Source: Natronorubrum thiooxidans (GTDB lineage: Archaea > Halobacteriota > Halobacteria > Halobacteriales > Natrialbaceae). From it: a stretch of DNA of 64,000 nt. Positions within the stretch are counted from its first letter, which is position 1. Each line of letters opens with the position of its first letter. The position numbers and the translations under genes are program-made. Where the stretch lies: the NCBI RefSeq assembly GCF_900156475.1, contig NZ_FTNR01000004.1, positions 124,001 to 188,000 on the forward strand. Reading direction: 5' to 3'. The notes beneath the pieces are model-generated. The model was not told the DNA's origin and did not search any database. It worked only from the letters and a program-made list of their open reading frames with translations. This document shows positions 43,856 through 46,440 of this stretch, one piece after another.

Positions 43856-43941
43856 CTATAGTAGCCACTGAACGTCAATGTACACCGCATCGCACGACTA
43901 CTGTGCGATGCGTGTGTAAATCGTTTCAGTTGTTACTATAC
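43856..43941. repeat. Palindromic intergenic repeat, family B
   Basis: The left arm CTATAGTAGCCACTGAACGT continues to ACACCGCATCGCAC. The right arm, read on the other strand, is GTATAGTAACAACTGAAACG continuing to ACACACGCATCGCACA. The ends CTATAGTA and the GCATCGCAC core are nearly perfect. About 86 bp, probably able to form a cruciform. Only one copy is in this window, but the end sequence is one I associate with dispersed haloarchaeal repeats. Confidence 0.75.
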
Positions 43942-44025
43942 AGTGTCACGCACCGCCTGCGGTGACCGCTGGCTGCGACCTCGGTGCTATCGGCGAGCCA
44001 ACGAGCGTCGCGATCGGCCACGGCC

Positions 44026-44085
44026 CCGCAACCACTAAACGCAACTCACCCTAATCAGTTCCCAATGAGCGACTGGACCGAGAAG
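44026..44085 (+). repeat. Direct repeat: rfcL promoter and start, copy 1
   Basis: This copy matches 44908-44967 at 57 of 60 positions (by eye). It includes the TATA-like ACTAAACGC, AATCAGTTCCCAATGAGC and the codons for MSDWTEK. After the repeat the frame runs into a stop at 44131-44133. The toxin-antitoxin genes lie between the copies, so the copies look like the boundaries of an insertion. Confidence 0.85.
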
Positions 44086-44297
44086 TCGAGAAAATACGAT
44101 GTAGATTCGATGTGCAGAGAGGGATTATCGTAGCCACCCGGAGTTCCAAGACCCGACCTTCGGCGGGACATCTCGGTTCTTCGGCGGGTAACTATGAATT
44201 TCTACGATACTGCTTATAAATTCCGGCCAGTGGACACAGGATGGGTATATCCGTATATCGGGGAACAGTTTTGTTTTCGCCCACCGTACACCAAGAC

Positions 44298-44528
44298 ATG
44301 TCAGACGTAGCCCTGGACGACCGTGGTCGCCTCACGCTCCCGAAGGAGGTTCGAGAGCGATACGGGGACCGATATCACGTCGTTCAGCTTCCCGACGGAG
44401 TCAAATTGGTTCCTGTCGCCGATGACCCGCTCGAGGCGCTCAGAGACGAATTTGCGGATGTTGAGAAGTCGGCCGACGAACTTCGTGAAGAAGCACGTGA
44501 AGCAGCGCTCGACGAGGCCGGACGATAG
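44298..44528 (+). CDS. AbrB/MazE-family antitoxin
   Basis: This 76-residue protein has a SpoVT/AbrB DNA-binding domain (VALDDRGRLTLPKEVRERYG, DRYHVVQLPDGVKLVPVADD), followed by a helical tail (VEKSADELREEAREAALDEA) typical of antitoxin toxin-binding segments. Its TAG is directly followed by the ATG of the PIN toxin gene. The start at ATG 44298 gives the normal family N-terminus; an ATG at 44241, about 24 bases after a TTATAAA box, could add 19 residues. It should neutralise the toxin and repress the operon. Confidence 0.82.
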   Translation: MSDVALDDRGRLTLPKEVRERYGDRYHVVQLPDGVKLVPVADDPLEALRDEFADVEKSADELREEAREAALDEAGR

Positions 44529-44903
44529 ATGTATGCGGAAACCGATTTCCTTCTCGCGCTGATTAAGGACGATGACTGGCTCGGAGACGCCGCCGAGTCA
44601 GTCTACCGAGACCACCACGACGAGTTATGGACGTCGCAGTTCACGCTCATCGAACTCCTGATGGTCGCCTACCGTGAGGAACGTGATACCGAACGCGTCG
44701 TCTCGAACGCCGCCAGCCTTGTTGAGGTACGCGGTGACGTAGAGACGGTCGTTACGGCGGCGACGTATGTGGAAGACCACGGGTTCACACCGTTTGACGC
44801 GCTTCACCTTGTCGAATCGAATGGGGATACCATCGTCTCGAGCGACGATACATACGAGGACGTGACGTCCCGGCTTGACCTGAAGTCCGTCGACGAGGAG
44901 TAA
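44529..44903 (+). CDS. vapC: PIN-domain toxin (VapC-like ribonuclease)
   Basis: This 124-residue PIN protein has catalytic acidic residues in the expected order: Asp6 (MYAETDFLLALI), Glu42 (TLIELLMVAYRE), Asp90 (FTPFDALHLVES) and Asp106/107 (IVSSDDTYEDV). VapC toxins cut tRNA or rRNA and stop translation. It abuts the antitoxin gene with no gap. The pair is enclosed by 60-bp direct repeats of the rfcL promoter, a sign of lateral insertion. Confidence 0.85.
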   Translation: MYAETDFLLALIKDDDWLGDAAESVYRDHHDELWTSQFTLIELLMVAYREERDTERVVSNAASLVEVRGDVETVVTAATYVEDHGFTPFDALHLVESNGDTIVSSDDTYEDVTSRLDLKSVDEE

Positions 44904-44907
44904 CGCT

Positions 44908-44967
44908 CCGCAACCACTAAACGCGACTCACCCCAATCAGTTCCCAATGAGCGACTGGACCGAAAAG
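44908..44967 (+). repeat. Direct repeat: rfcL promoter and start, copy 2 (functional)
   Basis: This is the copy in front of the intact rfcL gene. CCGCAACCACTAAACGCGAC leads to AATCAGTTCCCAATGAGC, with the ATG at 44947. The TATA-like ACTAAAC is centred about 28 bases before the ATG, so the repeat holds the full core promoter. Confidence 0.85.
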
Positions 44968-46440
44968 TACCGTCCGACGACGCTGTCGGAGGTACGTGGG
45001 AACAACAAGGCCCGCGACCAACTCGAGGAGTGGGCGCGGACGTGGGACGACCACCGAGAGTCGGTGATCGTCCACGGGAGTCCGGGCGTCGGGAAGACCT
45101 CAGCCGCCCACGCGCTGGCCAACGACCTGGGCTGGCCCGTGATGGAGCTCAACGCCAGCGACAGCCGAGGGGCGGACGTCATCGAGAAGATCGCCGGCGA
45201 GGCCGCCAAAAGCGGCACGCTGACCGGCGGCGAAGCGGGTCGCCGGCTTGTCATCCTGGACGAGGCGGACAACTTCCACGGCAACGCCGACTACGGCGGC
45301 TCGGCCGAGGTCACGCGGGTTGTCAAGGACGCGAACCAGCCGATCGTCCTCGTGGCAAACGAGTTCTACGATATGAGCCAGTCGCTGCGAAACGCCTGCG
45401 AGACGGTCGAGTTCCGTGACGTTTCGGCGCGGTCGATCGTGCCCGTTCTTCGCGATATCTGCCGTCGCGAGGACATCGAGTTCGAGGACGCTGCGCTCAA
45501 AAAGATCGCCGAATCGACCAGCGGCGACCTGCGGTCGGCGGTCAACGACCTGCAGGCGGTCGCCGAGACGGCCGATCGCCTCACTGTCGAGGACGTCGTC
45601 ACGAGCGAACGCGACACCACCGAGGGAATCTTCGACTTCCTCGATGCGCTCATCAAGGAAGAAGACGCCGAAGGCGCGCTGCGGGCGTCCTACGACGTCG
45701 ACGAGAACCCCGACGAGATGCTAAACTGGATCGAAGACAACGTCCCGAAAGATTACGAAGGGGAAGAACTGGCCGATGCCTACGAGTTCCTCTCGAACGC
45801 CGACCGCTGGCTCGGCCGCGTTCGGGCGACTCAGGACTACTCCTACTGGCGGTATGCGACCGACAACATGACCGCCGGCGTCGCCGCCTCCCGTCGCGGA
45901 AACAAGGGTGGTTGGACCCGCTACGGCCCGCCGAGCTACTGGTCGAAACTCGGCCGCACCAAAGGCACTCGGAACACCCGCGACGCTATCGCCGAACGCA
46001 TCGCCGAACGCGAGGGGACAAGCGTCGCGACCGCGCGCCGGGAGATCCTCCCGTTCCTCTCGGCGATGACCCACCACTGCAAAAACCGCGAATTGACCGT
46101 CCGAATGGCTGCCGTCTACGAACTCGATGAGGCGGAAGTCTCCTTCGTCACCGGCAGCGGAAAAGACACGAACAAGGTCCAGTCGATCGTCGAGGACGCC
46201 GAAGACCTGCTCGCTGAAGAAACAGTCGAGCACTCAGGGGGCGCGTTTTTCGATGCCGGTGACTCGAGTACTGATCGCGACGGCGACGGCACTGCCGAAA
46301 CGGATGCCAGCGACGACTCGAGCGATCAGGAGACGCTCGCGGCAGCGACTGACTCGGGGAGCGACACGACCCCCTCGGAGTCGGAGACAGCGGCCGACGA
46401 TACCGACGACGGTCAGGCGGGACTGAGCGACTTCATGTAG
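44947..46440 (+). CDS. rfcL: Replication factor C large subunit
   Basis: This 497-residue AAA+ subunit of the clamp loader opens with SDWTEKYRPTTLSEVRGNNK, Walker A VHGSPGVGKTSAAHALAN (GSPGVGKTS at 44-52), Walker B RLVILDEADNFHGNADYGG, and the sensor/arginine region ESTSGDLRSAVNDLQAVAET. The collar domain follows. A Ser/Asp/Thr-rich acidic linker leads to a terminal QAGLSDFM that resembles a PCNA-interacting peptide. It loads PCNA at primer ends together with RfcS. The promoter and first codons are duplicated upstream around a toxin-antitoxin module. Confidence 0.95.
   Translation: MSDWTEKYRPTTLSEVRGNNKARDQLEEWARTWDDHRESVIVHGSPGVGKTSAAHALANDLGWPVMELNASDSRGADVIEKIAGEAAKSGTLTGGEAGRRLVILDEADNFHGNADYGGSAEVTRVVKDANQPIVLVANEFYDMSQSLRNACETVEFRDVSARSIVPVLRDICRREDIEFEDAALKKIAESTSGDLRSAVNDLQAVAETADRLTVEDVVTSERDTTEGIFDFLDALIKEEDAEGALRASYDVDENPDEMLNWIEDNVPKDYEGEELADAYEFLSNADRWLGRVRATQDYSYWRYATDNMTAGVAASRRGNKGGWTRYGPPSYWSKLGRTKGTRNTRDAIAERIAEREGTSVATARREILPFLSAMTHHCKNRELTVRMAAVYELDEAEVSFVTGSGKDTNKVQSIVEDAEDLLAEETVEHSGGAFFDAGDSSTDRDGDGTAETDASDDSSDQETLAAATDSGSDTTPSESETAADDTDDGQAGLSDFM

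Follow-up and report, generated by a model that had tools for sequence, protein, structure and literature searches.

A putative integrase-less toxin–antitoxin cassette at the attachment site of rfcL-specific integrases in Halobacteriales

The AbrB-like/PIN gene pair that precedes rfcL in Natronorubrum thiooxidans appears to be an integrase-less, cis-mobilizable cassette of ~0.8 kb that is moved by rfcL-specific integrases, a reading to which we assign a probability of about 0.8; its movement we infer from comparisons among genomes. At the level of sequence, these comparisons establish a specific site with narrow breakpoints, import of the rfcL promoter, stacking of modules, transfer between genera, an integrase clade at the site, left-end repeats in common and one intact tandem. 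With less assurance, we lean towards a broader view in which the cassette represents a minimal class of mobile element in Halobacteriales: a recombinase-less toxin–antitoxin (TA) unit of ~0.8 kb that parasitises the one attachment site of a dedicated clade of rfcL-specific integrases, invades it anew in different genera and families, and repeatedly exchanges the promoter and opening codons of this essential gene.

The direct repeat and the gene pair

The window analysed is a stretch of 64,000 nucleotides of the N. thiooxidans genome. Within it, a direct repeat of 64 bp (44023–44086 and 44905–44968), identical at 60 of 64 positions and with a spacing of 882 bp, encloses the AbrB-like and PIN genes only; the insert contains no integration or transfer genes and no transposase. 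The features of the locus, all on the + strand, are as follows.

44023..44086, +, upstream copy (attL-like junction) with rfcL-type promoter, ATG and codons 1–7; 60/64 against the downstream copy
44071..44086, +, left attachment core GACTGGACCGAGAAGT; crossover placed at ~44072–44082 by comparison with relatives
44097..44114, +, left-end direct repeat CGATGTA-N4-CGATGTG with an 11-bp period; putative integrase arm sites
44118..44217, +, ~100-bp insertion in the module left end; similar segments elsewhere in family genomes
44269..44277, +, TATA-like stretch, the module's own putative promoter, ~21–29 nt before the AbrB start codon
44298..44528, +, AbrB-like antitoxin gene, 76 aa; weak matches to AbrB models
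44529..44903, +, PIN-domain (VapC-like) toxin gene, 124 aa; PF01850, E=3.8e-8
44905..44946, +, promoter of the downstream copy, from which rfcL is now driven; moves together with the module in relatives
44947..46440, +, target gene rfcL, 497 aa, encoding the large subunit of replication factor C; NCBIfam NF003228, E=2.3e-270
44953..44968, +, right attachment core, rfcL codons 3–8, still attB-like by comparison with relatives

Both copies of the repeat contain the promoter-like box CCGCAACCACTAAACGC, an ATG and codons for MSDWTEK. The reading frame of the upstream copy opens with the ATG at 44065 and closes after 22 codons at the TAG of 44131–44133, and the ATG of the downstream copy, at 44947, is the start of the intact rfcL gene. 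An earlier, sequence-only reading had described the repeat as 57/60 over 60 bp and had recognised the rfcL TATA-like box, start codon and MSDWTEK codons in both copies, the early stop upstream and the intact gene downstream. All of this is borne out, as is its view of the locus as a mobile TA module lodged at an essential gene that has kept a working promoter. The arrangement is not a product of chance, since two copies with the same right edge (AAGT) recur in dozens of genomes. Where relatives have an equivalent of the upstream copy, it matches the start of rfcL in congeners whose site is empty.

The 882-bp spacing, against one of ~825 bp, is mostly explained by the ~100-bp insertion at 44118–44217. 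This segment is present as a single copy in its own genome, and segments like it are found at other loci in G004, G007, G047, G050, G055, G056, G089, G105, G110 and G113. To the left of the repeat, at 43856–43940, the window also contains a palindromic MITE-like element of ~85 bp with terminal inverted repeats, for which the single-strand fold has a z-score of −6.8 and which has 39 matches in the same genome.

The AbrB-like gene lies directly before the PIN gene and in the same direction. It matches AbrB models only below the cut-off (TIGR01439, 19.0 bits against 28.3); in the PIN protein, the acidic residues D6, E42, D94 and D112 are invariant in 47 copies, and a search of solved structures by sequence with this protein returned nothing useful. 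Both genes are under purifying selection relative to their relatives, with dN/dS values of 0.061 (AbrB-like) and 0.071 (PIN), and from their families we take the pair probably to act as toxin and antitoxin. A promoter-like block, GGGGAACATTTTTATTTTCGCCCACCGTA, is kept before the AbrB start in 47 modules. The orphaned rfcL promoter was considered as a necessary driver of the TA genes and set aside; the module has this conserved block of its own and would not need the orphan, which may still contribute. Not every member of the AbrB–PIN family sits at rfcL, since homologues at L211, L220–L222, L224, L226 and L227 lie away from the gene and have no rfcL core. At L227, a palindromic direct repeat of 28 bp lies on either side of the homologue.

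Recurrence, breakpoints and transfer

When 125 genomes of the family were searched with the upstream copy, 108 had a match, and many of these had two ~820 bp apart. An intact AbrB–PIN pair occupies the same place at 47 of the 121 rfcL loci examined in the family. The other loci are empty or have PIN or AbrB remnants directly before rfcL, and some combine an intact module with an older, decayed module upstream; the leftover 3′ end of a PIN gene commonly precedes the upstream copy. The pair is also found before rfcL in other families of the order (f4, f5 and f17), and outside its own family the repeat is recognisable over 63 bp in L210 (86%) and in part in L212. In short, insertions at rfcL have occurred repeatedly in different genera and families and have left remnants stacked at the site, a wider pattern than the sequence-only reading had supposed.

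Three variations on this pattern were seen. In L067, L084 and L125 the two promoters hardly differ, a pattern that could also come from local gene conversion or from movement within a species. In L086 (genome G029, contig C6, ~385519) there is an orphan copy of the rfcL 5′ end with an AbrB remnant and a left end of module type, and rfcL is not nearby, which points either to rearrangement of the region or to a large insertion whose parts lie on different contigs. In L163–L166 (G052, G061, G037 and G077) the N-terminus of RfcL reads MDWTEK and the promoter is different, resembling the rfcL starts of family f4, so that the first rfcL codons were apparently imported from another family.

The position of the crossover follows from sequence comparisons. 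All upstream copies part from rfcL right after AAGT, at codons 7–8, and the breakpoints in relatives lie inside rfcL codons 3–6. In G033 the left flank and upstream copy are 93–94% identical to the empty sites of its congeners G034 and G035, which have a single copy of the kind that the sequence-only reading had proposed looking for. The downstream copy of G033, on the other hand, has an identity of only 0.776 to these sites, and identity returns to 0.97–0.99 in rfcL past the core, indicating that the downstream promoter is foreign and the gene native from the core onward. A second comparison, between G059 (genus g15) and G075 (genus g16), brackets the exchange from both sides. To the left of the upstream core the two genomes are unrelated (41–56% identity); the left end, abrB, the PIN gene and the downstream promoter are 99.1–100% identical; and after the core the identity of rfcL drops to 85–91%. 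The shared block starts after core position +6, with the break at +7, and ends before +17, that is, within GACTGGACGGA. Finally, 14 of 57 close rfcL pairs have a promoter identity of 0.77 or less and yet an identity of 0.92–1.00 over the 60 nt that follow the core. These three comparisons lead us to conclude that the module brings the downstream promoter with it and that the recombination is site-specific.

On this sequence evidence, neither target-site duplication nor long homologous recombination offers a suitable description, and two points of the sequence-only reading need revision. It had taken the repeat for a duplication of the host target, but the recombination core falls within 16 bp of codons 3–8 and the downstream promoter arrived with the module; and it had placed the module upstream of rfcL, but the insertion lies inside the first rfcL codons.

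The two module genes and rfcL give conflicting trees, of which that of rfcL largely recovers the genera. In the module tree, the module of the window (G000, genus g1) groups with that of G079 (g16) with support of 100/92, G048 (g13) groups with G118 (g25) with support of 100/100, and modules of g15 group with those of g16, as in the case of G059 and G075. In this last pair, one cassette is present at ~99–100% identity in two genera and ends abruptly in its two cores.

Integrases beside rfcL and their link to the cassette

In G043, G109 and G089, elements of 13–29 kb lie between an upstream copy of the core and rfcL, and each encodes a tyrosine integrase that adjoins rfcL and is divergent from it. 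The integrase of G043 matches PF00589 with E=8.5e-29, and the catalytic residues R185, H304, R307, H330 and Y340, which make up the R..HxxR..H..Y pattern, are invariant in the three members. A profile built from these three proteins was searched against 392 genomes of the order and the 30 best loci were examined. The top 10 (G043, G109, G089, G298, G276, G178, G264, G361, G375 and G207, from families f1, f4 and f5) are without exception neighbours of rfcL; none of the next 20 is. In the tree of these integrases the beside-rfcL label changes once, on a branch with support of 92/81, so that the support for an rfcL clade is moderate and not strong.

The elements are flanked by the core and range in size from 7.6 to 35 kb. 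Far ends located by the core pattern include an exact 16-bp direct repeat 7.6 kb away in G361, one at ~35 kb in G375 and one at ~11 kb, with two mismatches, in G276. The elements carry their own leader and first codons, such as MVDWTE in G109, so that replacement of the rfcL promoter is general at this site. In the same profile search of 392 genomes, the genome of the window had no integrase of the rfcL clade at present. No relatives of the integrase were found in viral contigs or genome contigs, and among phage and plasmid records the only matches were distant integrases with at most 31% identity at good coverage. A small conserved protein is encoded directly before each rfcL-clade integrase (L139:1753–2262; L181:2241–2621); it has no Pfam or PHROG match and is a candidate helper or directionality factor.

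The cassette and the integrase elements resemble one another at their left ends, where a direct repeat with an 11-bp period follows the core in both. The repeated units are CGATGTA (twice) in f1 modules and GATGTAA (twice) in the G089 element, and GTGTGTA (twice) in the f5 module of L210 and CGTGTGT (twice) in the element of G298, for which the assignment of the left end spans a contig break. Over 14 left ends the lag-11 score is 74, against a mean of 32.7 and a maximum of 50 in 5000 shuffled trials, and lag 11 stands out among lags 7–18. To judge by sequence, these repeats look like putative integrase arm sites common within each family. They are absent from the left end of G375 and from the non-integrase cargo elements of G025, G052 and G061. 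In G025 (L082:6352–9270) a gene for a 972-aa MEDS/GAF histidine kinase lies between two copies of the rfcL 5′ end, 3.2 kb apart, and other inserts of 1.9–3.2 kb are found at rfcL in G052, G061 and G036; since the lag-11 repeat is absent, most of these other passengers may have arrived by another route. The left end of the G052 insert (L163) is similar to that of G025.

The two kinds of element also occur together. In G375 the order is an intact AbrB–PIN pair, promoter, core, ~35 kb with the integrase, and rfcL, a tandem of the arrangement expected for accretion, and TA remnants lie beside the integrase elements of G043, G089 and G361. The right junction of the cassette is attB-like, with a promoter of rfcL type and without the leader that the integrase elements have on their right, so that the cassette is not bounded by a canonical attL/attR pair. 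Neither excision nor a circular form was seen, and viral contigs and phage records yielded no free attP circle, no TA-bearing virus and no match to the PIN protein. A search of viral contigs with the core gave 90 matches, which we take to be due to chance because none is near rfcL or a real integrase homologue.

Mechanism, alternatives and relation to known systems

We propose that the cassette has one attachment site on the chromosome, rfcL codons 3–6 (GAYTGGACSGA), and that this site is the target of a dedicated clade of tyrosine integrases, which haloarchaeal elements of provirus or plasmid type carry. A crossover inside these codons would strand the old promoter and codons 1–7 upstream as a dead copy, and rfcL would be restored by a new promoter, with an ATG and first codons, brought in on the incoming DNA. 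In accretion, an integrase element would enter the attB-like core to the right of the cassette; the composite would be excised, transferred and integrated elsewhere; and the integrase element would then leave alone, with the cassette and donor promoter staying in place. Repeated rounds would build up stacks of decaying modules. The rfcL integrase clade is the probable catalyst of cassette movement, and accretion its likely route.

Haloarchaea recombine DNA readily, and the near-identical promoters in both copies of several genomes could have arisen if donor DNA of the order promoter–TA–promoter–rfcL had been exchanged by ordinary homologous recombination, with crossovers in the 64-bp repeat and in the coding region of rfcL. 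Against this, the breakpoints on both sides fall within ~10–20 bp of one another inside the core in independent transfers, despite more than 1.4 kb of rfcL homology, and the integrase elements use the same core; we consider the explanation unlikely. The existence of larger integrase elements with the same core and left-end repeats might suggest that the module is not a mobile unit but a local remnant of one of them, left by internal deletion. The compact layout of left end, AbrB, PIN and promoter recurs at 99–100% identity between genera, however, and an AbrB–PIN pair inside an integrase element was never seen, so that we give this account very little weight.

Less credible again is a single ancestral insertion in the order, followed by vertical inheritance and many losses through recombination between the repeats. 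It would explain why the module is widespread at one position, families f4, f5 and f17 included, but not the strong conflict of the TA and rfcL trees (G059/G075, G048/G118 and G000/G079), the fresh cassettes stacked on decayed ones, the foreign promoters, or the presence of almost the same cassette in distant genera whose rfcL genes have diverged. Direct repeats flanking an insert are also what a transposon or IS-like element with an unusually long target-site duplication would leave. The sequence-only reading had already doubted an ordinary transposase, with good reason: the insert encodes none, dozens of genomes have the insertion at one and the same position, and the downstream copy is foreign in G033 and so is not a copy of the target. 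We regard this last possibility as negligible.

Several implications follow. The first codons of the clamp-loader gene are added to the sites at which archaeal proviruses and plasmids integrate, together with a dedicated integrase clade, and an essential replication gene has had its promoter repeatedly replaced by mobile DNA. A TA pair could turn mobile merely by having attachment cores on both sides, which bears on the patchy distribution of TA systems. Because stacked modules record past integrations, the rfcL site could serve as an archive of the elements that have passed through it.

Among archaeal tyrosine integrases that have been surveyed, the sites are mostly tRNA genes (PMC8371274). 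The rfcL clade resembles the SNJ2-type and other archaeal tyrosine integrases, as described there, in being classical and restricted to haloarchaea and in restoring a conserved target gene, but its site is rfcL codons 3–8 and not a tRNA gene. The pTN3-like integrases, whose targets are tRNA genes cut in their 5′ half (PMC8371274), share with the rfcL clade integration at a 5′ end, after which the restored gene is expressed from the element side, whereas rfcL is a protein-coding replication gene and the rfcL-clade integrase is not split by integration. In the literature searched, with subscription journals mostly outside the search, there was no earlier mention of rfcL as an attachment site. 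The gene pair itself is like type II VapBC systems with an AbrB-type antitoxin, having a PIN protein with all four acidic residues encoded after a small AbrB-like gene; it differs in being bound to one att site and apparently moved as an att-bounded unit.

The closest parallel to the whole arrangement is with the bacterial CIMEs, which undergo cis-mobilization by accretion with integrative elements, as in the ICESt1-related elements of Streptococcus thermophilus (PMC5704250). Like a CIME, the rfcL cassette lies between att-like sequences, has no genes for integration or transfer, is found in tandem with related integrase elements at one gene and forms stacks with decayed elements. Unlike CIMEs, it is archaeal and only ~0.8 kb in size with a TA pair as its sole cargo, its core lies at the 5′ end of a protein gene whose promoter is replaced, its right junction is attB-like and not an attR, and its hosts are provirus- or plasmid-like elements rather than ICEs. 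Set beside these systems, the rfcL cassette would be a cis-mobilizable element that is unusual both in its target and in its size and that carries a TA pair.
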